Shown one piece after another: positions 2,367-40,500 of a stretch of DNA of 43,391 bases. Origin of the DNA: a virus; the IMG/VR virus record IMGVR_UViG_3300023112_000033, positions 1 to 43,391 of that record; one strand, written 5' to 3'. How positions within the stretch are numbered: the stretch's first letter is position 1; every line of letters starts with the position of its first letter. The notes under the pieces are model-generated. The model did no database searches. It had not been told where the DNA came from and saw only the letters and a list, made by a program, of their open reading frames with translations. Position numbers and translations under genes: made by a program.

Positions 2367-2597
2367 ATGTCAGACAAACAAATGGGTATGTGGGCATCAC
2401 TAACAGCAATCGTTAGAACAGCACCAGCTACAGTACTAGACTCTAAGGAGAGACTAGGCAAGACATCTAGCCTTGTGCTAGACAACATAGACATAGAACT
2501 GCTATCTAACAAGTACGAAGGTCTTAAGGAGCTTAATGACAAGTACGGTACTGAAGTAGAAACATTAAATGAATTAGCAAATAAATTTGGTTTATAA
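2367..2597 (+). CDS. Early hypothetical protein, 76 aa
   Basis: First rightward gene after the genome-end region. An AAGGA element lies upstream of the ATG. The sequence is mixed in charge with a helical C-terminus (residues about 45-76) and no known domain. It is immediately followed by a strong terminator, so it forms a one-gene transcription unit. The position suggests it is among the first proteins made after infection. Confidence 0.65.
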   Translation: MSDKQMGMWASLTAIVRTAPATVLDSKERLGKTSSLVLDNIDIELLSNKYEGLKELNDKYGTEVETLNELANKFGL

Positions 2598-2602
2598 AGA
2601 TT

Positions 2603-2631
2603 AGGGACGTAAAGTCCCTTCTCTTTTTTTC
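2603..2631 (+). terminator. Intrinsic terminator after first early gene
   Basis: Stem AGGGAC/GTCCCT with a five-base loop, followed by CTCTTTTTTT. It closes the transcription unit of the 76-residue early gene. Confidence 0.8.
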
Positions 2632-2703
2632 CTAAACAAGACCTATACAGATAGGGCATACAGTACACCTGTACACTCCCTAAACACTAAAGATAGGGCT
2701 TGT

Positions 2704-2722
2704 ATTACTCAAGGAATTAATT
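2704..2722 (+). promoter_or_regulatory. Repeated AT-rich promoter candidate, copy 1
   Basis: ATTACTCAAGGAATTAATTA matches the copies at 3039 and 3447 with one inserted G. Each copy lies a short way after a terminator and before a transcribed unit, which is what a promoter for the phage's own heterodimeric RNA polymerase (or for the host enzyme) would look like. This copy precedes the structured non-coding RNA. No promoter has been mapped. Confidence 0.55.
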
Positions 2723-2726
2723 AGTA

Positions 2727-3035
2727 CAGGATAGGGGATCAAACCCTAGTATGTAGCAAGCCTATTGCACTGTAATACATACGACATATCCTAGTGATGC
2801 AATCATATTGGCTCATTACCAATATGCAACTAGTCGGTGGAGTCATACTCTGCAAGTTATTACGAAAATAGGCATAATTGTCTCGGAAGTATATTGGCTC
2901 AAATATACTCGTAAATTACGAAGGCTCTGAGCAGGCAGTTGATATGTATTAAAGTAATTGACATTGAGGAACTGACGAGTTCAACCAAGCATTACATATC
3001 TAATCCATAAACCCTCTTCGGAGGGTTTATTTTTA
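2727..3035 (+). ncRNA. Candidate structured non-coding RNA, about 300 nt
   Basis: No open reading frame of useful length occurs between the promoter-like repeat at 2704 and the terminator at 3009-3035, yet the stretch is packed with hairpins: 2732-2748 (5 bp), 2749-2782 (GTATGTA/TACATAC with an inner GCAA/TTGC), 2804-2826 (CATATTGG/CCAATATG, 8 bp), 2888-2909 (AGTATATT/AATATACT, 8 bp), and GATATGTA 2941-2948 with TACATATC 2993-3000 enclosing GAACT-GACG-AGTTC. Two of the loops share the motif TTGGCTCA. A promoter, an RNA-like body and a terminator together argue for an independent abundant RNA. It is not a tRNA, tmRNA or group I intron by inspection. Function unknown. Confidence 0.65.
3009..3035 (+). 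terminator. Intrinsic terminator with UUCG tetraloop
   Basis: AAACCCTC-TTCG-GAGGGTTT followed by ATTTTTAT: an eight-base-pair stem capped by a stable UUCG tetraloop. It defines the 3' end of the non-coding RNA unit. Confidence 0.85.
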
Positions 3036-3038
3036 TGC

Positions 3039-3057
3039 ATTACTCAAGAATTAATTA
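3039..3057 (+). promoter_or_regulatory. Repeated AT-rich promoter candidate, copy 2
   Basis: ATTACTCAAGAATTAATTA starts directly after the UUCG terminator and lies 60 bases before the start codon at 3119. It is identical over 19 bases to the copy at 3447. Confidence 0.6.
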
Positions 3058-3118
3058 ATAAAGGTTTAGAATCAGTACCTACATAAACTGGTTCATCTTT
3101 CAATAAGGAATTAATATC

Positions 3119-3409
3119 ATGGCTTTACAAAACAACAACAAACCTTCAAACAAATCAGACTTCAAAAAGGCTGATGTATTCATAAATTTCACAGCTACAG
3201 CTAGTAGTCCAAATGTAGAAGGTCAATTCGATCTCCCTACACATAACCAGTCTTTGAAGTTATATGCTGATGAAGACATTATTAGTAGATCTATTTACCA
3301 TAAACTACTTCAGGATCCTAATGCTGACATTACTATAACCTTTAAAGTTAATAGCGTTAGATTGGCTAAACAACCTATCAGTGATACTGATGCAGATATT
3401 CCTTTCTAA
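3119..3409 (+). CDS. Early protein with SSB-type C-terminal tail
   Basis: A 96-residue protein of unknown family. Its last eight residues are DTDADIPF, closely matching the acidic tip of bacterial single-stranded DNA binding protein (DDDIPF), the docking peptide through which many repair and replication proteins bind SSB. The body contains a beta-rich stretch (KADVFINFTATA, later ITITFKVNSVRL) that could be a small OB-like or sheet fold, but this cannot be shown by eye. It has its own promoter-like repeat and its own terminator, so it is probably made in large amounts. It may be a DNA-binding protein or a decoy for SSB partners. Confidence 0.7.
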   Translation: MALQNNNKPSNKSDFKKADVFINFTATASSPNVEGQFDLPTHNQSLKLYADEDIISRSIYHKLLQDPNADITITFKVNSVRLAKQPISDTDADIPF

Positions 3410-3416
3410 TCTTTTT

Positions 3417-3442
3417 GAGCCTCTTAATGAGGCTCTTTTTTT
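3417..3442 (+). terminator. Intrinsic terminator
   Basis: GAGCCTC-TTAAT-GAGGCTC followed by seven T. It ends the single-gene unit of the SSB-tail protein, eight bases after its stop codon. Confidence 0.88.
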
Positions 3443-3446
3443 CTTC

Positions 3447-3465
3447 ATTACTCAAGAATTAATTA
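3447..3465 (+). promoter_or_regulatory. Repeated AT-rich promoter candidate, copy 3
   Basis: ATTACTCAAGAATTAATTAG directly after a terminator and about 70 bases before the first RNA polymerase subunit gene. It is the third copy of the repeat in this 800-base region. Confidence 0.6.
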
Positions 3466-3535
3466 GTTATGGATTTATTTATTGGGTACTCCGTACCCTT
3501 TTTGAAATATTTACTTATTAAGGAGATAGATAGTT

Positions 3536-4435
3536 ATGAACCAAGAGCAATCAGATTTGGAACTCACATATTCAAAGAAGCTAGTTAACCTAGCTTGGAG
3601 GAATACTAATGTTGATCCAATATTGAAACAGGAGATGATAGATAGATTAGATACCTATAGGACAGGTAGTTACTACCAATCCAAGAACGATAGATTAGAT
3701 AGCATTAACTCTGTTGATAGCTCAGATATCATTGATGAAATAATCATAGCTACAGTAGCTATCAGAGATATGTCTGTAATCCAACAAGTAATAACTAAGC
3801 TAGCTCATAAACTATTTAGTTCATTGGATCAAATACAGGCTGTTACAACAGTGATAGAAATACTCACAGTTCTATGTGAGTTTGATCTATATCACATCTA
3901 CTTCAAGGAAGATGTTAACAATAGTTTAGGTACATTAGCTATCAAATCTAATATTCCTATCTCAGCAGAGATGGAAGAATATTTGGATCAAGTTCAATAC
4001 CCATTACCAATGATATGTGAACCAAATGATTGGAATACCAACAGAGATGGTGGTTATTTACATGGATCAATTCACTGTGTACTAGGCAAAGGAAACTTCC
4101 ATGAAGAAATTCAAGCCTTAGATAGGCTTAATGAACTTCAATCAATCCCTTGGGAAATCAATCCCTACATACTTCAGTACGAGGAGAAACCGAATAAACC
4201 AGAGAAACTCAAATTACCTGAACAAGTTACCCAGTTCAAGAAACATAGCAAGAACTCAGGTAAATGTTATGCAGAAATGATAGCTAGAGGGAACAAGTTC
4301 TACTTCACTTGGAAGTTTGACAAGAGAGGTAGGGCATATTCATGTGGATATGATATCAATTTGCAGAGTTCTCAATATAAGAAAGCAGTAATTAACCTAG
4401 CCAATAAAGAGATTATACCTCTAGAGGCAATTTAA
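3536..4435 (+). CDS. N4-type RNA polymerase II, subunit 1 (N-terminal part)
   Basis: One half of a heterodimeric, T7-family single-chain RNA polymerase that in N4 (gp15 with gp16) transcribes the middle genes. This half is 299 residues, a little longer than N4 gp15. Near its C-terminus it carries the T/DxxGR motif as FDKRGRAYSCGYDINLQSSQ (about residues 260-279), which contacts the template-product hybrid. The catalytic aspartates are absent, as expected, because they lie in subunit 2. An AAGGAGA ribosome binding site precedes the ATG. The gene is followed by subunit 2 after 100 bases. The split is the normal state in N4-like phages. Confidence 0.9.
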   Translation: MNQEQSDLELTYSKKLVNLAWRNTNVDPILKQEMIDRLDTYRTGSYYQSKNDRLDSINSVDSSDIIDEIIIATVAIRDMSVIQQVITKLAHKLFSSLDQIQAVTTVIEILTVLCEFDLYHIYFKEDVNNSLGTLAIKSNIPISAEMEEYLDQVQYPLPMICEPNDWNTNRDGGYLHGSIHCVLGKGNFHEEIQALDRLNELQSIPWEINPYILQYEEKPNKPEKLKLPEQVTQFKKHSKNSGKCYAEMIARGNKFYFTWKFDKRGRAYSCGYDINLQSSQYKKAVINLANKEIIPLEAI

Positions 4436-4535: not shown

Positions 4536-5525
4536 ATGTTTCAGCGATTCACAGGAATTCAATACTTGGCATTAGATATAGCAAATACTTTTGGACTAGA
4601 CAAAGAATCTTTCGATTCTAGGCTAGATTGGGTAAGGTTACATAGGGCAGAACTGGAGTCATTTGCAGAAGAAGCAGATGAACCTATGTTATTTCTTAAA
4701 GGTGTAAAAGCTCTTAGAGATGTAGAAGCAGGAAAACTTATAGGACATAATGTCTTTTGGGATTGTACAGCTAGTGGTCTACAGCTAATGGCTTGTCTCA
4801 CAGGATGTGAGGCTACAGCATTAGAAGTAAATATTGGTACTGATGAGAGGAAAGATGTGTATATATCTGTAGCTAAACAGATCAATGAGGAATGCGGTTT
4901 TAGCTTTACTAGACAAGATGTTAAACCTGCACTGATGACAAGATATTATAATTCTATACTCAATCCAATAGAAACATTTGGTGAAGATACAGATGAATTG
5001 AAAGCTTTCTATACAATCTTAGGCAAATCCTTTAAAGGAGCTGAAGAGTTTATGGAAGATTGCAATGATATCTATCAGAGCTATAGGAAAGATGTATATA
5101 GCTGGACATTACCAGATGGTCATGTAGCTGTATGCCCTATAACTGTTACCAAGGTAACTAAGTTAGAGATTGATGAACTGAACCATGAGAAGGTTGCATA
5201 TACTCATTCAGTGAACCAATGGAATAAGAAGGACAGATCACTACCTGCAAATATCATTCATTCAATTGATGGATATGTAGCTAGAGAGATGGTTCGTATG
5301 GCTAGAGAACAGGGATTTGAGCTTGCCCATATACATGATGCATTCACATTTTTACCTAACTATGGTAATCAAGTAAGACAGAACTTCTTAGACATACTCC
5401 AAGGGATAGCTAAGAGTAATCTATTAGGTGATATCTTCAATGAAATAGCAGGTGAAGATGTAGGTTGGGAAAGAGTAGGTGATATCTCAGAATTGATCCA
5501 TAAATCAAACTACGCTCTTTCATAG
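4536..5525 (+). CDS. N4-type RNA polymerase II, subunit 2 (catalytic part)
   Basis: Catalytic half of the middle RNA polymerase, 329 residues against about 400 for N4 gp16. Visible motifs in order: motif A DCTASGLQLMACL (aspartate at about residue 76, the first metal ligand), motif B RQDVKPALMTRYYNS (lysine at about 130; the usual Tyr-Gly is Tyr-Asn here), and motif C HIHDAFTFLP (aspartate at about 267, the second metal ligand). With subunit 1 it forms one active polymerase. An AAGGAGA ribosome binding site precedes the ATG and a strong terminator follows. Confidence 0.92.
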   Translation: MFQRFTGIQYLALDIANTFGLDKESFDSRLDWVRLHRAELESFAEEADEPMLFLKGVKALRDVEAGKLIGHNVFWDCTASGLQLMACLTGCEATALEVNIGTDERKDVYISVAKQINEECGFSFTRQDVKPALMTRYYNSILNPIETFGEDTDELKAFYTILGKSFKGAEEFMEDCNDIYQSYRKDVYSWTLPDGHVAVCPITVTKVTKLEIDELNHEKVAYTHSVNQWNKKDRSLPANIIHSIDGYVAREMVRMAREQGFELAHIHDAFTFLPNYGNQVRQNFLDILQGIAKSNLLGDIFNEIAGEDVGWERVGDISELIHKSNYALS

Positions 5526-5572: not shown

Positions 5573-5596
5573 GCTCCGCTCTCTTTTGTGAATTTT
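5573..5596 (+). promoter_or_regulatory. Repeated GCTCCGCT element, copy 1
   Basis: GCTCCGCTCTCTTTTGTGAA followed by a T run. Close copies lie at 14922 and 27856, all in spaces between transcription units. This one follows the RNA polymerase terminator and precedes the DUF1874 gene by 22 bases. A promoter for the phage RNA polymerase or a shared leader element is likely, but the role is unknown. Confidence 0.5.
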
Positions 5597-12414: not shown

Positions 12415-12936
12415 ATGAAAAGACCGATTAAACACTTAATGTTAAAGCAGATGTATTTACAACCAAAAAAGTTCTGGGGTATATGTGAGATGGCTAATGA
12501 AATTAGCTGTAGTCCTACCTCAGTAACTGTAGTTGTAGCTAACATGATTAAAACTAAAGAACTATATAGATCTGCAAGTAAGAGAAGATGTAACAAATCT
12601 AACTTCAGATTAAAAATAGCACCAACAGAAAACTATAACCAGAAGTGTATTGAAGTAATGAACTTAATTAATACTGAAGAAGTATACTTCAGAGAAATGG
12701 CAAATAGTACAGGATTAGATGATCTGTATTTACATACCATCATAAAATGTAACTATCATAAGATCAAGGCAAGGAAACTAAAGAATAGTAAAACTCTCTA
12801 TAGTAAGAGAGAATCACCTAACCATTACGTACTTAGCAATGGGCATGTGCTTACACAAGCTTGCCCTTTCTTATCACCTAAACTATTTGAGAGCCTTAAA
12901 GTTCCTCTAGTAATTAAAACTTGTCTTCAAAGATAG
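12415..12936 (+). CDS. Probable winged-helix DNA-binding protein, C-terminus possibly frameshifted
   Basis: 173 residues, basic, with two repeat-like helical units. The first unit reads EMANEISCSPTSVTVVVANM then IKTKELYRSASKRR, like a helix-turn-helix followed by a wing; a second unit follows after residue 80 (REMANSTGLDDLYLHTIIK). Just after the stop, another frame continues without a start as SSKIGKHLAKAELYRDSYVE and closes at 12998, and its AKAELYRDSY matches the KTKELYRSAS wing. The original protein was probably about 20 residues longer and lost them by a frame change near 12917. Transcription regulator or decoy; the target is unknown. Confidence 0.6.
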   Translation: MKRPIKHLMLKQMYLQPKKFWGICEMANEISCSPTSVTVVVANMIKTKELYRSASKRRCNKSNFRLKIAPTENYNQKCIEVMNLINTEEVYFREMANSTGLDDLYLHTIIKCNYHKIKARKLKNSKTLYSKRESPNHYVLSNGHVLTQACPFLSPKLFESLKVPLVIKTCLQR

Positions 12937-15512: not shown

Positions 15513-15803
15513 TAATTTTAACAATAGGCATGGCAAACTCTATTAGGGTTTGTTTTATAACATCCTAACCTAGTGGGATGATGTTAAATAAACTGGGTAC
15601 AATTTCGACAATAAGCAAAAGGGACTCATATACCCTGTTAGCCCCTAACCTAAGAGGGGTTTGCTTAATAACTTAGGTACTTATTTCAGGTTAGTCTATA
15701 ATCTGGACAGGAGTGATTAGTCCCTATAAGCATGTGTAACTAATCAATTTTTTATAACCCTATGTGGTTATTTATGTGTAGTAGATTGTAAGAGATCTAT
15801 TTT
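15513..15803 (+). ncRNA. Gene-free, foldable region
   Basis: About 290 bases without a gene but with much pairing. A terminator-like hairpin lies near 15533-15557. At 15613-15666 AAGCAAA pairs with TTTGCTT and encloses two hairpins (AGGG..CCCT and CCCCT..AGGGG), which together make a three-way junction. CTAACCTAG and CTAACCTAAG recur in loops. The unit ends at the strong terminator at 15804. It may be an independent structured RNA or the leader of the tRNA cluster. Confidence 0.45.
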
Positions 15804-15842
15804 GGCTCTATAAGTATTTATCTACTTGTAGAGTCTTTTTTA
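15804..15842 (+). terminator. Strong intrinsic terminator
   Basis: A 13-base-pair stem (GGCTCTATAAGTA with TACTTGTAGAGTC, two wobble pairs) and a six-base loop followed by seven T. Confidence 0.85.
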
Positions 15843-23414: not shown

Positions 23415-24902
23415 ATGAAGTATTATACTTACACAGAAGAAGTAAATGAAGCATACGTAGTAGCAGTACTAATCAAAGATACTGCATTCAAAGAAGTTAA
23501 CCTAAAGGAATACTATTTAAACCCATTAAACGAACTAGGGGTACCTAAAGAGAAGGTAATCTTTATTGGGTTAAAATATAACCCTAACGGAAAGATCTCT
23601 GCTACAGAGCAGAAGGAATATCTAGATTTAATTAAACCATATCTAGAAGAGCTACAAGTAAAACTCTTACTTGTTACTGATGGAAAGTACTTTAAAACTT
23701 TAACCAAAAAACCAAAGGTAGAACCTTACTATGGGTATAAAGTTGAATGTGCTTACAAAGGGTATGAAGAGTATACAGCAGTATTAAGTATTAACTCTGA
23801 AGCTCTATTCTATAAACCTGATTTACAAGTAAAACTAACTAAGAGTTTACATATAGTGAACTCAATCCTATGTGAAACATATGTGGATCCAGGTATACGT
23901 GAATTTGGTATTCAAGCTCTTTTTGATAGGGAATCTATCGAGAAAAAACTACTAAACTATTTAACTGAACCCATTCTTACCTGTGACATAGAAACGTCTG
24001 GTTTATCCCTTACCAACTCGATAATTTCTATCTCATTTGCTAAGAACGAAAATGAGGCCATTGCTTTCCCTATTGCAGAGGAAAACAAAGCTACATTAAG
24101 AACTTGGTTCACATTATATAAAGGTACTCTCATATTTCATAACTGTACATTTGATATAAAAATGCTTATCTACCATCTATTTATGAATGATCCGTTGGAT
24201 ATGGAAGGTCTAATTGATGGATTAGAGGTAATGTTCAGATCCATAGAAGATACTAAATTAATCATTTATTTAGCTACCAATAATACTGCAGGTAATAACC
24301 TAAAACTAAAAGATAACAGTGCAGATTTCCTAGGTAACTATGGATTGATTAATTCAGATACAGATGTAACTAACATTCCTATGGATCAATTACTTGAATA
24401 TAACGCTAAGGACTGTCTAGCTACTTGGTATGTCTATAACAAGTTTAAACCAATGATGATTGCTGATGAACAGGAGAACCTATACAAGGAAATATTTATT
24501 CCAAGTGCAAAAGTTATTTGCCACATGGAACTTATAGGTATGCCTATGGATATGGATCAAGTACAACATGCTAAATCCTATCTAGAAGATATCATTGCTA
24601 AGCAGTATCAAATATTTAATAAATCTAGAATCATAAAGAAGTTTACTTGGGAGCTGAACAGATTGGAAATGATCAAAGCTAACGCTAAATTGAAATCTAA
24701 GGTTAAATCTATTATGGACTTTGATGTGGAATATAACCCTAACTCAGGTAACCATAACCAAAATCTAATCTATGATTTCATGGGTAATGAAGTAATAGAC
24801 ACTACTGATTCAGGATTGCCCGCTACAGGTAAGGAAACGCTAGAGAAGGTACTTAATAAACTCATCCATGAACATGGAATAACAGAAGACGAACTTAAAT
24901 AA
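23415..24902 (+). CDS. DNA polymerase family A, exonuclease and thumb part (split gene)
   Basis: 495 residues. The 3'-5' proofreading exonuclease motifs are visible: DIETSGL (about 191), NCTFDIKML (about 242) and YNAKDCLATWYV (about 328). The frame continues into the thumb (PATGKETLEKVL) and then stops; the palm and fingers are encoded separately at 25497. N4-like polymerases are normally one chain of about 850 residues. Here the break falls in a loop-helix of the thumb and no sequence seems to be lost, so two polypeptides probably assemble into a working enzyme. It starts immediately after the helicase stop. Confidence 0.88.
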   Translation: MKYYTYTEEVNEAYVVAVLIKDTAFKEVNLKEYYLNPLNELGVPKEKVIFIGLKYNPNGKISATEQKEYLDLIKPYLEELQVKLLLVTDGKYFKTLTKKPKVEPYYGYKVECAYKGYEEYTAVLSINSEALFYKPDLQVKLTKSLHIVNSILCETYVDPGIREFGIQALFDRESIEKKLLNYLTEPILTCDIETSGLSLTNSIISISFAKNENEAIAFPIAEENKATLRTWFTLYKGTLIFHNCTFDIKMLIYHLFMNDPLDMEGLIDGLEVMFRSIEDTKLIIYLATNNTAGNNLKLKDNSADFLGNYGLINSDTDVTNIPMDQLLEYNAKDCLATWYVYNKFKPMMIADEQENLYKEIFIPSAKVICHMELIGMPMDMDQVQHAKSYLEDIIAKQYQIFNKSRIIKKFTWELNRLEMIKANAKLKSKVKSIMDFDVEYNPNSGNHNQNLIYDFMGNEVIDTTDSGLPATGKETLEKVLNKLIHEHGITEDELK

Positions 24903-24915
24903 AAAGGAAATAACA

Positions 24916-25497
24916 ATGTCATTATTACTAAGAAAAGCAACACAAGATTTATTAATTAAATTTAATTTAGGAGAATATCATATAGATATTAATCAAGAGT
25001 TAGATATGGTTATTGTAGGAGAATGCGGCAACTATTTATGTACAGTTAAAGGTGTAACTTTTAGTAGAAAATCTCCTACAAAAGCTGAAATAAATTTTGC
25101 TGTAGAATTACTTAACAAATTTCTAACTACACATAAATCTAAAATAAACAAAGTTATCTCAACTAAAGCAGATTGGAAACTTAATTCCCCAAATGAAAAT
25201 TTATGGTCAGGGAACAAAATCAGACAAATTGACACTGATGAGCAGTCTATTAGTGTTTACTTCAAAAAAGGATTAGATTCTAGAGTAATTTTCTATAAAA
25301 AAGACCTAACATTAATTAAAGTATACTTACCTGGTTATGGTAGTGAATCAATTAATGTAGCTGACTTAAATACATTCCTTAAGGGTAAAAAGATGCAGAA
25401 TAAATATTTACACATTTTGGATCAAAAATTAATTGAGGATGACTTACATAAAAAATACAATGCTGCAATAAACGCACTTAATACCTGTGCTATCTAA
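24916..25497 (+). CDS. Protein of unknown function inserted in the split DNA polymerase gene
   Basis: 193 residues between the two DNA polymerase halves, with its own AAAGGAAA ribosome binding site. No HNH, GIY-YIG or LAGLIDADG motif is visible and it is not an intein, since both polymerase parts have their own stop and start. Its sequence is lysine-rich with beta-like stretches (MVIVGECGNYLCTVKGVTF). Its stop overlaps the start of the palm part (TAATG). In T4-like phages split polymerase genes contain homing endonucleases; this could be an unfamiliar or decayed one, or a polymerase-associated protein. Confidence 0.65.
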   Translation: MSLLLRKATQDLLIKFNLGEYHIDINQELDMVIVGECGNYLCTVKGVTFSRKSPTKAEINFAVELLNKFLTTHKSKINKVISTKADWKLNSPNENLWSGNKIRQIDTDEQSISVYFKKGLDSRVIFYKKDLTLIKVYLPGYGSESINVADLNTFLKGKKMQNKYLHILDQKLIEDDLHKKYNAAINALNTCAI

Positions 25498-26627
25498 TGA
25501 ATAGATCTGAAGCCATAGAACAGGCAAGGATTATTAAAGCTCTAATTACTCTTACTGAAGTATCTAAGATTACAGGTACTTTCATTAAAGCATTTGAAGA
25601 GAAGTCATTTACTAAGGAAGATGGTATTAACTATCTTCATGGAAACTTTAACTCAGGAGGAACCAAATCAGGAAGACTATCCAGTTCATCACCGAATTTA
25701 CAAAATATCCCTAGTACTGGTAACCCACACTCTAAAATAGTAAAGAAATGCTTTAAGCCACCTAGTGGCTGGCTCTTTGTGGGAGCAGATTTTAGTTCTT
25801 TAGAAGCTAAAATTGGTGCTTTATTAACAAAAGATCCTGCTAAATTAGGTATATACACTGAAGGCTACGATATGCACTCATTCAATGCTTTTGGGTATTG
25901 GGGGGATAAAATGCCTGATATACAATTAGAATTAACTAAGGCTAATTCAATTAAAGAAAGGGTGTATATAATTAACTCAATTAAAGATAAATACCCTGAA
26001 TTTCGACAAGCATCAAAAACAATAACCTTTGCTGCACAATACGGGGGAAGTTATAAGACATTTATGGATTCAGGTTTTTCAATGGAAGAAGCTAAACAAA
26101 TTGAAGCTAACTACAACAAACTATACGAAACATCTATTACTTGGGCAGAAGATAAAATTAAACAAGCTAGTAAAGATGGGTTTGTGACCTGTGCTTTTGG
26201 ATTGAAGTTAAGAACACCAATTATAGGTCAAGTAGTTATGGGTACGTCTAGCACACCTTATGAAGCTTTAGCAGAAGCCAGAACAGCTGGGAATGCTATG
26301 CAACAAGGGTATGGATTACTTAATAATAGATCAGCAATAGAGTTCCAAGAACTGCTATTAAACAGTGAATTCAGGTATAATATTAAGCCTAGTTGTCATA
26401 TACATGATGCACAATATTTCCTTGTAAAGGAAGACGTAGATACCATTCATTGGTTAAACCAAAACCTAATTAAATGTATGTCTTGGCAAGAACTACCTGA
26501 ACTAAAGCATGATCAAGTAAAGCTAGGAGCAGAGTTAGATCTGTTCATACCTGACTGGTCAGAACACATAACACTCCCCAATGGGGCAACTAAAGAACAA
26601 ATAGGAGATATATTAAATGAGAAGTGA
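25497..26627 (+). CDS. DNA polymerase family A, palm and fingers part (split gene)
   Basis: 376 residues holding the catalytic core: GGTKSGRLSSSSPNLQNIPS (about 52-71), motif A VGADFSSLEAKIGAL (aspartate at about 97, metal ligand), motif B RQASKTITFAAQYGGSY (about 170-186), and motif C CHIHDAQYFLV (aspartate at about 303, metal ligand). It lacks the exonuclease, encoded at 23415. Its start overlaps the stop of the inserted gene, so its synthesis is probably coupled to it. The split separates proofreading from synthesis onto two chains. Confidence 0.9.
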   Translation: MNRSEAIEQARIIKALITLTEVSKITGTFIKAFEEKSFTKEDGINYLHGNFNSGGTKSGRLSSSSPNLQNIPSTGNPHSKIVKKCFKPPSGWLFVGADFSSLEAKIGALLTKDPAKLGIYTEGYDMHSFNAFGYWGDKMPDIQLELTKANSIKERVYIINSIKDKYPEFRQASKTITFAAQYGGSYKTFMDSGFSMEEAKQIEANYNKLYETSITWAEDKIKQASKDGFVTCAFGLKLRTPIIGQVVMGTSSTPYEALAEARTAGNAMQQGYGLLNNRSAIEFQELLLNSEFRYNIKPSCHIHDAQYFLVKEDVDTIHWLNQNLIKCMSWQELPELKHDQVKLGAELDLFIPDWSEHITLPNGATKEQIGDILNEK

Positions 26628-29234: not shown

Positions 29235-31382
29235 ATGAGAGATTTAGACTCGATAGAACATTTTGATACCTTAGAGGAAATAACCCAAATATTGATGGCT
29301 AAGACTCAAAATGATAATCCTCTGTTCTTTAGAATATTGACCGCTTATTACTTCTCCAAGATAGCAAGTATGATGAGAACCAATATTAAAACACATGATA
29401 GAGGTACAATACCTGTAAGCCTATATGCCATAAACTTAAGTGTTTCTGGTACAGGTAAGGGACATAGTACTAATATCATGGAAGAGCAAGTTATCCATAA
29501 ATTTAAAAAGAATTTCTTAAATAATACTTTTGAGGAAGTAGCTAAGAAGAACCTAGCTAAACTAGCTAATTTTAGAGCTACTAAATATGCTGATGATCCA
29601 GATGAGACTTTAGAACGGGTAGAGAAAGAATTCGATCTACTTGGGCCACTATTATTTTCATTTGATTCAGGTACTACTCCAGCAGTTAAACAGATGAGGC
29701 ATAAATTACTTATGGCTAATGCTGGATCAATGAATTTTGAATGTGATGAGATTGGTAATAATATAGCTAGTATTAATGAATTACTAACTACCTTCCTTGA
29801 ATTATATGATGTAGGTAAAGTTAAACAAAAGCTAATTAAGAATACAACTGAAAACAGACGTAATGAGGAAATTGAAGGCAAGACACCTACTAATATGCTT
29901 CTATTTGGTACACCTAACAAGGTATTAAATGGATCCAAAGAGGAAGAAACTTTCATTTCAATGTTAGATACTGGATATGCTAGAAGATGTTTATTTGGAT
30001 TACAGACTAAGTCTAATGGATTCAAAGATATGTCTGCTTCAGATCTATATGACATTATGACTGATACTTCATCAGTTGATTACCTAGATGCAATATCAAA
30101 TCACTTTGGTAACCTTGCAGATATACTCAATTTCAATATAACACTAACCATGACAAAAGATGTTAGCTTACATATTATTGAATATAAAACCCATTGTACC
30201 AAAATAGCTTATGATCTAGGAGATCATGAAGACATCCTTAGAACAGAGATTGAACACAGGTATTACAAAGCACTAAAACTTGCAGGAGCATTTGCTTTCA
30301 TAAATGGTGATCATGAAATAACTGAAGACATCCTCTATTCAGCAATCAAGTTAGTTGAAGAATCTGGTAAAGCATTTGAAAGTATTCTTTCCAGAGACAG
30401 AAACTATGTCAAATTAGCCAAGTACATAGGAGGAAACAAGGGAGAACTTACCCAAGTTGATCTAACTGAAGACTTACCTTTTTATAAGGGAGGAGAAGCT
30501 CAGAAGAGAGACTTAATGAACCTTGCAGTAGCATGGGGTTACAAGAACAATGTAGTCATTCGTAGGGCATTCAGAGATGGAATAGAAATGCTCCAAGGAG
30601 ATTGCTTAGAAGAAACTAATATAGATAAAGTTATAATATCTTATAGTCAGGAATTAGCTGCAGGATATCAACCTGATGTAGCACCATTCAAGGACTTACA
30701 TAAATTAACAACTTTATCTGGTTACCACTATACGGCACACCACTTCATAGATAATTACAGATCCAGTATTAAAGCAATTCCAGGATTCAATCTATTAATC
30801 TTAGATGTGGATTCAGGTATTTCTATGGATACAGCTAAAGATCTTTTATCTGAATATATGGCTCTATTTGCCACAACTAAAAGACATACACCTGATAACC
30901 ATAGATTTAGAATTATTATGCCTTTATCTCATACTCTCAAACTAGTACCAGAAAACTACTCTAAATTCATGATGAATGTATTCAACTGGTTACCATTTGA
31001 AGTAGATGAAGCAACTAAAGACATAAGTCGTAAATGGATGGCATATTCAGGTACATACGATTATCAGGATGGGAAACTGCTTAATGCATTAACCTTTATA
31101 CCTGAGACAAGTAAAGAAGAGGAATATAAGAAGCTTATCTCTGATACCAGTAATTTAAATAACCTAGAGAGATGGTTCTATACAAATACTGATAACGGGA
31201 ATAGAAGTAACCAAATGATTAAATATGCATATGCATTAGTAGACAAAGGTCTAGCACTCGAAGATATCAAGAATGCTCTATATTCGTTTAATCATAAAAT
31301 CAAAGATGGTCTTACTGAAACTGAGATCAATTCAACAATTTTAATATCAACAGCTAAATCAATAGCAAAGAGAGATGCATGA
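29235..31382 (+). CDS. Replication protein: DUF3987-like ATPase fused to primase-like domain
   Basis: 715 residues, in the N4 gp43 position. The N-terminal half is a P-loop ATPase: VSGTGKGHS (70-78) and a Walker B FECDEIGN (168-175), as in DUF3987-type phage proteins. The C-terminal third has LLILDVDSGIS (about 518-528) and HTPDNHRFRIIMPL (about 549-562), which fit the DxD and RxxxPL strands of archaeo-eukaryotic primase-type domains. The combination would join strand opening and primer synthesis in one chain. Its stop overlaps the start of the next gene (ATGA). The primase call is from motifs only. Confidence 0.7.
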   Translation: MRDLDSIEHFDTLEEITQILMAKTQNDNPLFFRILTAYYFSKIASMMRTNIKTHDRGTIPVSLYAINLSVSGTGKGHSTNIMEEQVIHKFKKNFLNNTFEEVAKKNLAKLANFRATKYADDPDETLERVEKEFDLLGPLLFSFDSGTTPAVKQMRHKLLMANAGSMNFECDEIGNNIASINELLTTFLELYDVGKVKQKLIKNTTENRRNEEIEGKTPTNMLLFGTPNKVLNGSKEEETFISMLDTGYARRCLFGLQTKSNGFKDMSASDLYDIMTDTSSVDYLDAISNHFGNLADILNFNITLTMTKDVSLHIIEYKTHCTKIAYDLGDHEDILRTEIEHRYYKALKLAGAFAFINGDHEITEDILYSAIKLVEESGKAFESILSRDRNYVKLAKYIGGNKGELTQVDLTEDLPFYKGGEAQKRDLMNLAVAWGYKNNVVIRRAFRDGIEMLQGDCLEETNIDKVIISYSQELAAGYQPDVAPFKDLHKLTTLSGYHYTAHHFIDNYRSSIKAIPGFNLLILDVDSGISMDTAKDLLSEYMALFATTKRHTPDNHRFRIIMPLSHTLKLVPENYSKFMMNVFNWLPFEVDEATKDISRKWMAYSGTYDYQDGKLLNALTFIPETSKEEEYKKLISDTSNLNNLERWFYTNTDNGNRSNQMIKYAYALVDKGLALEDIKNALYSFNHKIKDGLTETEINSTILISTAKSIAKRDA

Positions 31383-32893
31383 ATAATAATTTATTACTAA
31401 TAGCAGGTAAGTCTGCTACAGGCAAGTCTGCCTCACTCATGAACTTAGAGAATCCAGAAGGAGTAATGTACTTAGGTTGTGAGAACAACAAATCCTTACC
31501 CTTCCCAAGTAAATTTCAAGAGTTTAACATTACTGATCCATTACAAGTATACGAAGCATTTGAGGTTGCAGAAACCAAAGATAATATCCATACAATAGTA
31601 ATTGATACCCTTACTTACTTAATGGATATGTATGAATCCATGCATGTACTTACTTCAAGCAATACGATGAAAGCCTTAAGTGTAAGGGCAGTTCACTAGA
31701 AATGGTGTTCTAAAGAAACCAATTGAATTCAGGGAAACTCTAAGGGAGAAATCCTAAGACAATCCTGAGCGAAGATTGACAATACCCCAGCTATATAATA
31801 CAATATTGTATTTTAAGTTTAGGGGAATATGATGAATAAGAAAAGATATGGTAATGAATTACATCCTTTATACACACGCTGGTTAAGTATGAACCAACGC
31901 TGTAATAATCCTAATCATAAGCAGTATAGAGATTGGGGTGGTAGAGGAATTTGTATTTCAAACGAGTTAAAAAAATTTAATGATTATGTAAGTATAGTTG
32001 AAAATTTACCTAATTATTCTCTTGATAATTCATTAGACAGAATTGATAACAACAAAGATTATTCAAAAGATAATTTACGTTGGACTAGTAGTAATACACA
32101 AGTAGCAAATCAAAGACCTAATTCCAGAGGTTTTAACAAATATACTGGAGTAGGTTGGAGTAAAGCCCATAATAGATGGGTTGCTAGAGTATCTTATAAA
32201 GGTAAAGTTTTACTCAGTAAAGTAACCTTAACTGAAGAAGAAGCTTTAACTGCTAGGAATCAATTTATCATTGATAATGATTTACCTCATCCTATCCAAA
32301 CATATTGTCAATAACGTGCAACGACTATCCTGAGAAGGAGTACACTCAAGTGAGTGGAAGCGGTTGGTACCTAAACAAGTAGAGTTGTAGGTAAAGATAT
32401 AGTCTAGCCTTATATGAAAATATAAGAAGTTCATAAGAGAACTGATATGGTTTAACGAACCATATTGAATATAAGCGGGGGCGGCTATGCTCAATTCTTT
32501 AAGAAGTTAATGCAAACCTATGTAGCTAACTCTACCAAGAACATTATATTCCTAGCCCATACATTAGATGTGATGAATGAAGCAGAGATGATCTCTGAAA
32601 CCTTAGTTAAGGTTAAAGGTTCATTGATGAATAATGGTATTGAGAGTGCATTCTGTACTGTTATTGGATCCAAGAAAGTAGCTATCAAGAAATTGAAAGA
32701 TACTAATTCAATGCTAAACATAACTGAGGAGGAAGAGCTACTGGGGTACAAACATGTATTTCAAACTAAACTAACGAAAGAAACAGTTAATGAAAGACTC
32801 CGAAGTCCTATAGGAATGTGGACTAAAGACGAAACATTTATCAACAATGACGTTCAATTAGTTTTGAACCGACTACATACATTTTATAATTAA
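31379..32893 (+). CDS. RecA-fold ATPase of the replication set, interrupted by a group I intron
   Basis: Exon 1 spans 31379-31676 and exon 2 spans 32478-32893; joined they encode 237 residues. Exon 1 has Walker A AGKSATGKSAS (9-19) and Walker B HTIVIDTLTYL; exon 2 has NIIFLAHTLD. Joining the T at 31676 to GG at 32478 creates a tryptophan codon and reads KAWGGYAQFFKKLM, the sequence expected for the family. Without splicing, exon 1 runs into a stop after 106 residues. In N4-like phages this ATPase (N4 gp44 position) precedes the SSB gene. The 3' exon has no start of its own; a TTG at 32465 lies inside the intron and is not genuine. Confidence 0.85.
31677..32477 (+). ncRNA. Group I self-splicing intron, td-like
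   Basis: 801 bases. The 5' exon ends AGCCT, whose GCCU pairs with GGGC in the intron start (P1 with the required U.G pair), and the last intron base is G. Conserved core: GCAACGACTATCC near 32318 with GACTAT (32323-32328) pairing ATAGTC (32399-32404) as P7, P8 hairpin CACTC-AAGT-GAGTG, and AGATATAGTCT, all close to the T4 td intron. An AATCCTGAGCGAAGATT-type P4-P6 segment is near 31770. The HNH gene lies in a peripheral loop. Terminal hairpins (ATATGGTT/AACCATAT near 32446) form P9 extensions. Confidence 0.92.
31829..32314 (+). CDS. HNH homing endonuclease with AP2-type DNA-binding domain
   Basis: 161 residues encoded inside the group I intron, with AGGGGAA ahead of the ATG. The nuclease part has RCNNPNHKQYRDWGGRGI and LDNSLDRIDNNKDYSKDNLR (HNH-like with the N-DR-D-N signature); the C-terminal part KYTGVGWSKAHNRWVARVSY fits an AP2 domain. 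Such enzymes cut intronless alleles and so spread the intron. The stop lies at the edge of the conserved intron 3' core. Confidence 0.88.
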   Translation: MMNKKRYGNELHPLYTRWLSMNQRCNNPNHKQYRDWGGRGICISNELKKFNDYVSIVENLPNYSLDNSLDRIDNNKDYSKDNLRWTSSNTQVANQRPNSRGFNKYTGVGWSKAHNRWVARVSYKGKVLLSKVTLTEEEALTARNQFIIDNDLPHPIQTYCQ

Positions 32894-34354: not shown

Positions 34355-34512
34355 TTGAAAAGATTAAACATGGAGTAATTGCTGTAATCCTAGCACCATT
34401 AATAATAGGTGCTTGGATGATTATCCCATTAATCTTGACAATCTTACCTGTAATATTCCTGACTTTAGTCATATATTTTATATTACAGGAAGAATATTCC
34501 AAATCTAAGTAA
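34351..34512 (+). CDS. Small two-span membrane protein, 53 aa
   Basis: ATGA overlap with the previous gene. Hydrophobic from residue 9 to 46 (VIAVILAPLIIGAWMIIPLI and onward), probably two membrane helices in a hairpin, with a charged end (EEYSKSK). Its last eight bases overlap the end of the convergent giant gene, so the two operons meet without any spacer. Function unknown. Confidence 0.6.
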   Translation: MIEKIKHGVIAVILAPLIIGAWMIIPLILTILPVIFLTLVIYFILQEEYSKSK

Positions 34513-37500
34513 GAACTTGGACGACTGCTGGTACAGCAGCAGTCTCCCCTAAACCAAATGGATTCTGAAAAGGTGCAGTTGGTTCTGTAACAATGTTTGA
34601 ATCGAATGGAGTAGATATATCTAATCCAAGCATAGCTTCAAGCATATGTAATAGGAATACTGATGCACTCTTCTCAGTTGTCATCCTAGCTAATACTTTA
34701 AATATTCTAAGAGGATATCGAGTAAATGGTGCTAGACCCATATCATTAGCATATTGAATATACTTATGTGTTGGTAAAGCGTAGTTAATGAAATCTTCTC
34801 TTAAATGGCTAACTACTTGATTAGCAGGTTGCTTTTGGTTCTTAACCAGATGCTCGTATATAGCAAATCTAGCAATGAAATCACTATATTGAGTAAGCTT
34901 TAATGCGAGTTTAAACGTACTTGTATTGGCTCCCATATACAATTGATTAGTAGCTTCTTTACCTAATTGAGGTAATTTATTTAATACAGGATCAGCCCAT
35001 CTGATAAATTTACTCTTATTTGAGTGGAAGTCCTCAGTAGTATCAATATCTTCAACAATAGTTGGAAACAGTCCTTTATCAATTAGAGGTTTAATTGGAT
35101 TAAGCCGCTGTAACTCTTTGTTTGAAACAATTCTTGCTTCAATATCTTTACGTTGTATAGTAGTAATTCCAGCTAACTGTAATTTTTTAGCATCAGATAC
35201 TAACTGCCTTTCAATATTTAACCATCTATCTAAATGACGTATACCTTCTATTTGAAGTTTAGCCATAATTTCAGGAGGGACACCATTAATTATACCAACA
35301 ATAGTATTACTGAATATATTATTCATAATCACTTGAGGTAGCCTTACAACAATAGTTGTCTTAGCAAATTTTACTATTTCTTGCCAAATAGTTTCAGCTT
35401 TTTTAAGCATGGATTGTATTTTATTCCTTGGTTTATCAACTACACTAAACTTCCTATATGCAAAGAAAATATCAACCCAAGCATCTCTGACAACAATACC
35501 ACCATCACCAAACACACTAGTAGCATACCTACGCATATCTTCAGGCATTAATCTATATATCTCAGCTAATTCTGGGTCAGTAGAATCTTTGTTTATGGTT
35601 ACATAGCTCTGAGGTAGTTTTAAATAATTCTTATCAAAGTCTGCTTTAAGAATATCAATAGTTTCTCTATTAAAACCTTTAGTATTAGCCTTGTCTTCCA
35701 TATGAGAATACATATGCCCTAGCACATTAAATGCTCTATCATCTCTTTTGAATAATCTTTTCTCTACAGAATTAGATATAGTATTCCTATAATCTGAGAT
35801 ATGACCTTTATCATCAATAGTAGGGACCATAATATTATCTTGTATAGTGGTATTACTATTAAGAGTACGTTTCATCTCACGGATAGTCTTCATCTTAGTT
35901 TTGTTGAAGTCATTAATATTTTTTAAGAAAGTAGCTACATCATTTGCATTACCTTCTTGTAACATGGATTGACCCATACTAACTTCACTAGTTAAAGAAG
36001 TGATAGTTTTAACCCTAGTGTTTAAAGCATAGTCTTTATTAACCATAAGAACCTTAGGTTTAGAGTTAACTCTAATCTTATTCTCTGGAAGAGAAGATTC
36101 TATAACATAACCTTCTTTTAATAATTGCTCTACATCTACTTCATCAACTACTCTAGTATCAACAAATGGGTCATTTAATTTGGCAGCATAACCCTTGTGT
36201 GTATGCGCTATTTTGTTATCAAAGTTTTTAGTTAAAGATTCTTTCTTGAAAGCATTATGCATATCAACTAAGAAAGTAAACCCATTCTGCTTAGGATTAA
36301 TAGCAACCTCACTATCAATTAAATCAACTACCTGTTTATTAACAGTTGGATTCGTTAATTGTATACCATACAAGCTTGTTAATTTATTAATTAATTCAAT
36401 TGCTAGATCCATATTCTTAGGAGCAGTAATTCCTAATTGAGGAATTGTATGAGGTAATATAGCAATTGATGTTGGATTCAACATAGTGTTGTACCAATTT
36501 GCTTTACCAAAAACATTCAAATGAGCCAAAGAATTACTCTGTTTTCTGTACAAGTTATACAGGTCTTTAGAACCTAACTTACGTAATTGAATAAGGGTAT
36601 CCTTGATCTCATCTCCAACTTTACTTGGATCATCAATCAAATCTCTTAAGTCTTTAAGATTATAATGTTTACGGAATAAAGCAGAAGCATCATTCCTTAT
36701 AAGTCCCTGTGTTAAAGCTTCCCAAGTATTATCTGAAACATTTTCTGTTAACATACTATCTTTGAGATCATTACTTACAACATGACGAACAGTATCTCTA
36801 GTTTTATCTATAACACTCATAGATCTAGCAAGATGTTCAACAATAGGTATCTCTTCTTTATCACCAAAACCAATAACTTCCTTAATTGTAGCCGCTAGGA
36901 ATTTACGTCTAGATACACCCATCTTAGCTGCCATATTATTAAAAGCGTTTAAATAAGCAGAAGTAGTTATTGGATTAACAACACCAGCAACTAATGAAGC
37001 TGTATTTACATACTTATTTTTATGCACTTTAAGGCTAAAATTAGCTAAAGGTTCACCTATCAACTTAGTAGCAACTTTACTAATAACCTTATTACCAGCA
37101 TTCAAACCATTAATAAGAAACTGAGTAGACATATGAGTCTTTTGTATCTTATTTAAATCTTTAACCAAATTCAGTAATACTACATCACCTGTATGGCCCC
37201 TATTAAATCTAAGTAATAAAGCATTTACAGCAATATTAAAATAATGTTGTAAGGTAGCTGCAAAAGATTGTTTCTTACTATCTTTAAGTAAATTAGGTCT
37301 GAAAGAAGCTAAATGTTTAATCAAGTGTTTATTAGTTAATCCATAAGCAACAAATTCATGTAAACTAATTGGCACTTGTTCAGTTTTAATTGTACCTGTA
37401 TTAAGATCCATTAATTGAATTGCTTGTGTTTTCTTATTTCTAAACACGTAATCAAACCTATCTTTAGCAGTTTTCTCCTCAACTAATTGATCTACATATA

Positions 37501-40500
37501 TAGGTTGATTATTTGGATCCAAATTTAAGAATATAAAGTGCTCATTACCTTCACCAAATACTTTAGATAAATGTTCAATAGATTTATCTCTTAATCTAGC
37601 AATCTTATGTACTATATTAGATTTGGTACTAGAGAGTAGTCCAGCCCTACTTATTGCATGACCAACTTCATGTGCATAGGTTTCTCTACCAGACATAGCA
37701 ATAGGATTAGTACTTGTACCTTGAGTAAGAGCTACATATATATTATCTCCAGCAATCCTACCTTTAGTCTTATTACCTAACTCGTCTAATTGTAATGTGA
37801 AATTACCTACACTGGGCATTAATTTAGCAGCATACTCTTCTAAGAAAACTCTCAAATATGCATCATGCTCTGCAGTTTCAGATATATTATCCTTAGCTTT
37901 AATTTCATCATAGGTTTGCGTTAATGTACCTGCATTCAAAGCTACTTTAGGTAGGGACTCATCAATATCTATTTGTCCTGGAGTAGAGCCAAATTCAGCT
38001 GTAATATCATTAACCAAATCCTCAGGAGAAATAACATTACCAGCACTATCTATTGGCTGTCCTTCTCTATTTACTCGTTGTGTTGGTTTAGCTTGTTGAG
38101 CAATAGATCCTTTAATATCATCTCCTGAGAGTATGAACAGGGGATCAGCAAAATGCTGTATAGAAGTAGCTTGGTTAAGTATTTCTAATGTACCTTTTCT
38201 AGTTTCACTAGCGTAATGCTTAACAGCTTTATTTCTATTTTTAAGAAATTTATCTAATCCTGCATTACCACTACCTGCTTCTTCTATAGCTTCCTTGATA
38301 TCTAGTCTAGCTTGCTCAGGAGCACTTACAGATTCATTATATGGATCTGCATCCTGTTTAGATATAACTTCCTTAGGAAAATCAGTTAAGTATTTTCTAA
38401 GAGAAGCTTTATCAGCGGCAGATAATTTGAGAGCATTCTTAACACTTCTATCCAATGTATTGGATACTTCTTGAGCAATAGAGTATTCAGAATTAACTTT
38501 AACAAAATTCTGTAGATAATCAGCAGTAGCTGCTTCAATTAGATTTGATCCAGCTTGTACTGCATCAAACATAGACATCACAGGTTTGCTACCAAATACT
38601 CTTGTAATAAAGGCTGAATCCATACCTTGGGTACCCCCTACTAAAGTAGCAACTCCAGGTTCAGTAAATATTTGTTTATGTATCTGGGATGTAGCTGTAC
38701 CCCCAGGTACAGTATTAAAAAATGCAATAGCTGTATATGCTGGATCATTTTCAGTATTAACTACTTTCTTAGTCTTAGAAGCAAATAAACCTTCTACACG
38801 TCCTTCATCTAGATTTGAATTAGAATCATAGAACTCAATGATAGGTAGAAATGCTCTATATTCCTTAGACTCTAGGAAGTCTCTCATCTGTTTTACCGTA
38901 GGAATACCTTTAGATTCATTGATGAATTTTAGATATCTCCAGTTAAACATATGAGATATAAGATTAATGTTACTATTCATCATTTCTTTAAAAACCTTAG
39001 TATCTTCTAAGTATTTCTTAAGACTAGATTGAACAGTGATACCATAAGACTTACTTAAATGAGTGTGCATCATTTTACGCACATCTTCAGGTAACTTTGT
39101 TTGTTTGATATTGAAACCAGTTTCTAATGTTTTAACAGGTCTGTTATTACCTATATTATGCTCCTTAATAATTTTATTGATAATGCTTTGGGTAGGTGAA
39201 TCTTCACCTCCAACTTCTTCAGCTAGTTTACTTTCAATATCCGTAACCAAAGCAGTAATAATAGTATCAACAGCTTTAGCTATAGCAGCACCATAGTTAG
39301 TAGTCATGGTTGGTGATTTAGCTATCTCCCTAGCTTCTCTAGTTATCTTACCTGTTAGATCCTTAAATTCAGGTACAAAATTGTTGTATGTAGTCATAAA
39401 TTCAAATGGTTTAACTAAATCATTATTAAATTCAAAATTTTCACCTTTAAGCTCTGTATAAATCCGTTTAACCATATTGGTTAAATCAACTTTAATAGCC
39501 TTAAATCCTTTACTATCTCCATTTCTTAAAGCTTCATTCATGTATTCTGCTAAAGAACTTAGTTCAGTAATATCGTTTGCAGCAGCACCAATAACTTGTC
39601 CATAGTTATCTAAATTACCTGGTTTTGAACTCCAAGTAGATAAGTTCTCACCTTCTGTAAAGAAAACTCCACCAGCCTCCAATTTAGCCTTTGTAGATTC
39701 TGTTAATACACCAGCTTGGATTAATCCAATAATAACTCCAGAAGTTACAGCATCATTCTCTTGTGAAATAGATGTAGTTACCTTACCACCAGTTTTAGCT
39801 TTAAAATAATCAACCAATTCAAGAAGAGTATCCAAAGAGTGGGACTTCTCTTCATTATTTGTGAATTTACCTATCTTAGCAAAATCAGACATAGTAGAGT
39901 CTTTATTAGTTAATTTATTAACAAGTTCCTCAACACCTTTATCTGACATAAATTCATCAAACATTTGATTAATTACTGCAGGATCATAATTAAGTTTAAC
40001 CGTACCATCTTTTTGGATCTTAGCAGATTTAATAGCATTAACTTTCTTCTCTAAGTTTTGCCCCAATCCTTGCATAACAGCAAGTTTATATCTAATTTCT
40101 GCATGAGAATTATCACCTTTCTTAAATGTACTTAACCAATCACTATTAAATATAGAATGTCTCTGTAGCTTATTAGCTTGATAATTAAATCCACTTCCTT
40201 GGATCATTATTCTACTGTTAGTAATAGCCATATATTTGAAGAAAAATTCAGAATCTAATCCCCTCTCTTTAACCATGTCATAGAAGGTAAAAAGATTTTC
40301 TATTTCAGTTAGGATACCTAAATTTGCACCTTCATAAGACTTACGATGCTCTAAAGGTTTATCTTCAATAGAGTACTCATATCCAAGATTAATTTTAAAT
40401 AACTCAATTAATTTATTTCTACTGTGGGTTTCTAATAAATTAATAAAAGCTTTCTTGAATCTAAAAGGAACATTGTTAGCATATTGAACACTCTTTTGAA

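Follow-up and report, generated by a model that had tools for sequence, protein, structure and literature searches.

The window, by which we mean the whole 43,391-base stretch of viral DNA that was analysed, carries on its + strand the two genes of an N4-type RNA polymerase II, RNAP1 at 3536-4435 and RNAP2 at 4536-5525. These two-subunit polymerase genes, by which Schitoviridae are recognised, were assigned to PHROG 2166 and 2051, respectively, and their closest phage matches in tblastn were N4-like phages with about 37-40% identity. Moreover, a 2908-aa ORF at 34505-43231 has a size and place that fit the giant virion RNA polymerase gene, for which it is a candidate judged from the ORF list. 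As far as can be read from its genes, the record is part of the genome of a new N4-like (Schitoviridae) phage. RNAP2 of this phage and that of Alteromonas phage PT15-A5 are without an internal segment of about 65-85 residues found in four other N4-like RNAP2 proteins.

Seven consecutive C residues at 2279-2285, near the presumed genome end, resemble the C-run located near position 31 of N4, and CCCCCCC is enriched in the early intergenic DNA of relatives (37 copies against 2.6 expected). Because of this resemblance and this enrichment, the left end of the genome is probably to be placed near 2250. The candidate RNA described below would then lie a few hundred bases inside that end and probably close to where the phage DNA first enters the host.

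Elsewhere in the window, group I intron signals were detected at 32172-32426 (39.8 bits, E 1.7e-8, under the cut-off of 50), together with a partial match at 31729-31819. These signals (31700-32464) are placed between an AAA-type ORF at 31379-31699 and the ORF that follows it, and a 161-aa ORF overlaps them; a gene around 31700-32464 is probably interrupted by an intron. The DNA polymerase gene is apparently split: positions 516-926 of PHROG 17 are found in the ORF at 23415-24902 and positions 930-1247 in the ORF at 25497-26627, and a 193-aa ORF with no PHROG match separates the two within 23415-26627. A stretch of about 295 nt at 15513-15807, near tRNA genes, has no + strand gene of at least 50 aa, and inverted repeats are visible in it.

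The gene-free unit of the early region

The early region is organised in tandem units. The upstream unit consists of a 76-aa gene at 2367-2597 (+), the first gene of the early region, and of a terminator at 2603-2631 (+) with a 6-bp stem at 2603-2619 and a T-rich tail. By position and look only, this gene is proposed to correspond to the small gene with which the early region of the relatives begins (N4 gp1-like). It was not among the matches of the relatives' first-gene family profile, which itself matched N4 gp1 weakly (E 0.041), and it had no PHROG or Pfam match. Between it and the 96-aa gene of the next unit (3119-3409, +; no PHROG or Pfam match), upstream of RNAP1 and RNAP2, some 520 nt contain no credible gene and are flanked by a terminator on each side. 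In this gene-dense phage, no + strand ORF of at least 50 aa is present in 2598-3118, and the initial annotation was right to describe about 300 bases there as free of genes.

The longest open frames of 2598-3118 are a 40-aa frame starting with TTG (2808-2930) and a 24-aa frame starting with ATG (2797-2871). No Shine-Dalgarno sequence was seen by eye at either of them or at any other short frame of the interval, and the 24-aa frame is what remains of coding potential. It could encode a tiny membrane peptide, MQSYWLITNMQLVGGVILCKLLRK, being hydrophobic with a basic end, and small hydrophobic ORFs exist in the corresponding gaps of the relatives L016, L017, L041, L045 and L074. Nevertheless such a peptide is hardly to be expected from a frame of only 24 codons which, unlike the neighbouring genes, has no Shine-Dalgarno sequence, which starts beside predicted helices and which overlaps one of the hairpins described below (hairpin A).

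The gene-free unit ends in a UUCG intrinsic terminator at 3007-3035 (+), formed by a stem at 3007-3030 with a TTCG loop and followed by a T-rich tail. This terminator had been annotated with a stem of eight base pairs; it is indeed present, with a stem of 10 bp. A third terminator with a T-rich tail is found at 3417-3435, and terminator-like sites number 10 in the region against 1.7 expected. The unit has, in short, the terminator of its own that is looked for in an independent non-coding RNA gene.

An AT-rich, promoter-like repeat of 18 nt, TTACTCAAG(G)AATTAATTA, was found at 2705-2723 (copy 1, TTACTCAAGGAATTAATTA, with one extra G), at 3040-3057 (copy 2, heading the unit of the 96-aa gene) and at 3448-3465 (copy 3, ahead of RNAP1), always on the + strand. 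With up to three mismatches allowed, 2705, 3040 and 3448 are its only sites in the 43 kb, which confirms that the repeat also stands before two other units. Each copy has a terminator before it and a unit after it, and the second, third and fourth units are all headed by the 18-mer, the second alone being without a protein gene. A search for the exact repeat across IMG/VR returned four matches, each of them a single copy with no N4-type RNA polymerase nearby, which were taken as chance. Sigma-70 promoters were fewer in the region than in shuffled sequences.

The position of the UUCG terminator, about 85 nt ahead of the 96-aa gene, together with the long leader present at the matching place in relatives, would also suit a leader-type control region of that gene, that is, an attenuator in which the terminator at 3007-3030 sets the read-through. 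We regard this as quite improbable. Copy 2 of the promoter-like repeat, at 3040, stands between the terminator and the 96-aa gene and makes read-through unnecessary, and the helices predicted for an RNA starting at 2691 leave the terminator free.

Further upstream, a C/A-rich stretch followed by AAGATAG occupies 2665-2696 (+) with the sequence ACACTCCCTAAACACTAAAGATAG, and a first copy of AGATAG, in a weaker context, is located at 2649-2654 (+). The element is conserved among relatives in their early regions: in many of them (L018, L023, L045, L047, L060, L127 and others) the first small early gene is succeeded by a terminator and then by a C/A-rich stretch with [A/G]AGATAG; L073 also has the C/A-rich stretch with [A/G]AGATAG. 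The 68 kb of early intergenic sequence from relatives contain AGATAG 102 times against 26.8 expected, and the strict composite of the C/A-rich stretch and AGATAG has 12 copies in 8 loci against 0.0 expected and is absent after RNAP2. No description of the C/A-rich plus [A/G]AGATAG element was found in the literature searched, and it may serve N4-like phages as a promoter or start element of early transcription. The idea that AGATAG generally provides one strand of a closing helix in the relatives was rejected, with just a weak excess of CTATC/TATCT found downstream (58 against 38.8).

Because the relatives carry this signal, we propose to shift the 5' end of the RNA, first annotated at 2727, about 35 nt further upstream; it probably lies nearer to 2691, within the likely start region. 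The candidate non-coding RNA would thus extend from 2691 to 3035 (+), with no gene, with signals at both ends and with predicted end-to-end pairing. Two promoter-like signals, the 18-mer and the C/A-rich stretch with AAGATAG, are seen from the sequence alone. The architecture, with no gene, with terminators and with head signals, lends good support to the independent non-coding unit that had been put forward, and its suggested early placement fits. The candidate is probably a real and discrete non-coding unit of an N4-like phage, and probably a transcribed one.

Predicted structure of the candidate RNA

When the RNA is folded from 2691, its two ends are predicted to pair. The 5' strand of the closing helices (2691-2723, +) pairs with a 3' strand at 2955-3001 (+), which precedes the terminator, through AGAUA/UAUCU, GCUUG/CAAGC, CUCAA/UUGAG and then longer helices, with pair probabilities of 0.59-0.86. 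For this RNA 9.2 end pairs are expected against 2.3 in shuffles (7 of 400 shuffles were as extreme), and 31.8 long-range pairs against 14.9 (12 of 400). End pairing is maximal for 5' ends at 2688-2691 and drops to either side. These predictions amount to moderate evidence for end-to-end pairing of an RNA that starts at about 2691. A different long-range pair, between 2941-2948 and 2993-3000, had been proposed earlier; the two segments are complementary, and the pair is favoured in neither model, its predicted probability being 0.10 for an RNA from 2727 and 0.01 for one from 2691.

Two hairpins, A at 2804-2826 (+) and B at 2888-2909 (+), have 8 perfect base pairs each. Both contain TTGGCTCA, at 2808-2815 in A and at 2894-2901 in B, so the earlier observation of two loops with a common sequence is correct, and both also carry UUGGCUCA. 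Two smaller hairpins are predicted at 2837-2853 (+; GUGGAGU/ACUCUGC, 7 bp, probability 0.86-0.91) and at 2969-2982 (+; GAACU/AGUUC, 5 bp). None of 1000 shuffles (mean 0.04) contained as many as two 8-bp hairpins, and none of 2000 contained a pair of hairpins of at least 7 bp with a common 8-mer; these figures are optimistic, as the tests were chosen after the features had been seen.

The total folding energy is less distinctive. The interval first annotated gave a z of -3.4, largely because it includes the terminator; without the terminator z was about -2.0 to -2.1 (300 shuffles). Over 103 windows of the genome the mean z was -1.0, with 13 of the 103 at or below -2.5 and 8 at or below -3. As genome windows reach similar values, folding energy alone is unremarkable, and the stability above genomic background that is sought in a conserved structured RNA was not found (z about -2.0 without the terminator). 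The description of the RNA as structured can be kept for the two hairpins and the end-to-end pairing, which go beyond chance, and must be given up for the total stability, which is within the range of the genome.

In N4, hairpins are likewise found in the early region: the early promoters of this phage take the form of DNA hairpins close to the left genome end (PMC4496689). In the N4 genome we saw such hairpins at 90 and 557, the latter being AAGAAGC-TCC-GCTTCTT. The region studied here is near the presumed left end as well and might act at the DNA level, either as promoter hairpins of the virion RNA polymerase or as genome entry or packaging sites near the genome end. However, a promoter of the N4 virion RNA polymerase has a stem of about 5-7 bp, a 3-nt loop and C-TNC-G on the non-template strand, whereas hairpins A and B have 8-bp stems and loops of 6-7 nt. 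Moreover the unit ends in a terminator of the RNA type, and a DNA element appears very improbable to us. No canonical N4 virion RNA polymerase hairpin is found directly upstream of the candidate unit; one of this type, GGGTAC-TCC-GTACCC, is located at 3484-3498 and precedes RNAP1 by 52 bp, as in N4. GCTCCGC is also present at 5573, 14922 and 27856, the last copy within GAAGCTCCGCTTC, and both GCTCCGC and GCTTCGC are enriched in the early intergenic DNA of relatives.

Comparison with known RNAs and with relatives

The RNA was searched against Rfam 15 (6S, pRNA, Csr/Rsm, tRNA, group I intron and others) and matched no family at the curated score, which supports, as far as Rfam goes, the statement that it belongs to no recognised class. 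The best of the weak matches was to the Csr/Rsm sponge RNA rsmX (19.7 bits, cut-off 56, E 0.15). An identity with rsmX was rejected because the match rests largely on the UUCG terminator; unlike rsmX, the window RNA repeats GGCUCA and not GGA in its loops, and its GGA motifs are mostly in stems. The 6S RNA and the phi29 pRNA are non-coding RNAs, the first with end-to-end pairing and the second encoded near a genome end. The candidate, also without a gene, recalls 6S by its predicted end-to-end pairing and pRNA by its position, and differs from both in having no Rfam match. It is similar to the independent small RNAs encoded by phages in having head signals and a terminator of its own and no credible gene, whereas its length of about 340 nt and the absence of any sequence in common with an Rfam family set it apart.

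The search with RNAP2 gave 80 IMG/VR loci, all with at most 47% identity, and the 226-aa protein encoded at 1122-1802 has counterparts in relatives of the phage with up to 63% identity. No homologue of the RNA was found by DNA similarity in phage records, nor by blastn or nhmmer on the fetched loci of relatives, and no relative reached by searches with RNAP1, the 226-aa protein or the RNAP2 of L053, or by searches in genome contigs, carries it. With no homologue found in Rfam, phage or IMG/VR sequences, the RNA is at present an orphan candidate. The segment 446-950 of L053 has the words GGCTCA, GGCTCTG, GACATTGA and GACnAGTTC in the same order and at the corresponding place. Homology with it was rejected as unproven, since 9 of 300 shuffled sequences aligned with as high a score and the z of several unrelated gaps was higher. 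A pattern search of the whole collection matched L053 only and was circular, the pattern having been derived from L053. In L019 (5085-5566) and L045 (5114-5594) the gap before the small gene preceding RNAP1 contains non-coding blocks conserved between both phages; a tRNA-like stretch in the L019 gap is not recognisable in L045.

In the relatives the first small gene is followed by a terminator and by the C/A-rich stretch with AAGATAG, and a protein gene then comes after a leader whose length varies from about 65 to 540 nt. The leaders of these second units (L018, L060, L127 and others) correspond in place to the window unit, both following the terminator of the first small gene, and have the same C/A-rich AAGATAG head. 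They differ in being followed by a protein gene, whereas the window unit is ended by a strong terminator. Protein genes of the second unit were found in L018, L023 and L127, and long leaders in L047, L051, L060 and L074. Because the second unit of several relatives is a leader with a protein gene, gene loss is the main rival explanation: the window unit would be a relict that has shed its protein gene and retains the terminator and the leader, which is now drifting. The failure to find a homologue of the RNA and its unremarkable total folding energy agree with a relict. Nevertheless phage genomes shed useless DNA, the two strong hairpins and the end pairing go beyond shuffles, and the terminator and the head signals are intact, and we consider this chief rival somewhat unlikely.

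Proposed function

The explanation that we favour, on which our opinion is almost evenly divided and leans slightly to doubt, is that this N4-like phage has, near the left end of its genome, a separate transcription unit that codes for no protein and produces an early, closed RNA acting in trans. Its transcription, ends, timing and action in trans are what we infer from the gene-free architecture, the hairpins, the terminator and the head element, which is conserved among the relatives. Transcription would start at the AAGATAG element or close to it (about 2691) and stop at the UUCG terminator (3007-3035), and the product would be an RNA of about 340 nt with its two ends paired and hence closed. 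This early RNA would contact one host or phage partner by means of its two similar hairpins, either as a decoy or by base pairing. The presence of one sequence in both hairpins suggests a repeated contact; taken alone, this two-hairpin mechanism is unlikely, and nearly all of our confidence in the favoured explanation rests on the claim of an independent unit. The complement of the shared hairpin loop was found at or near no translation start in the window, and neither this search nor the comparison with Rfam points to a particular target. The high abundance, the binding of host RNA polymerase, ribosomes or a defence protein and the sponge action suggested earlier are hypothetical. Among 63 starts, one duplex with a translation start (gene at 12415) had a z of -4.6, a value obtained from 20 shuffles.

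To our knowledge few non-coding RNAs have been described for strictly lytic phages, and we know of no example from the early region of N4-like phages. It is conceivable, and in our judgement rather unlikely, that the candidate represents a new class of phage RNA, among the first N4-like transcripts, closed and with two copies of one binding loop, which would disable or redirect a host factor. If the unit is real, the earliest products of infection would include one that functions as an RNA. The C/A-rich stretch with AAGATAG, moreover, may serve as a handle on early transcription across the N4-like family.
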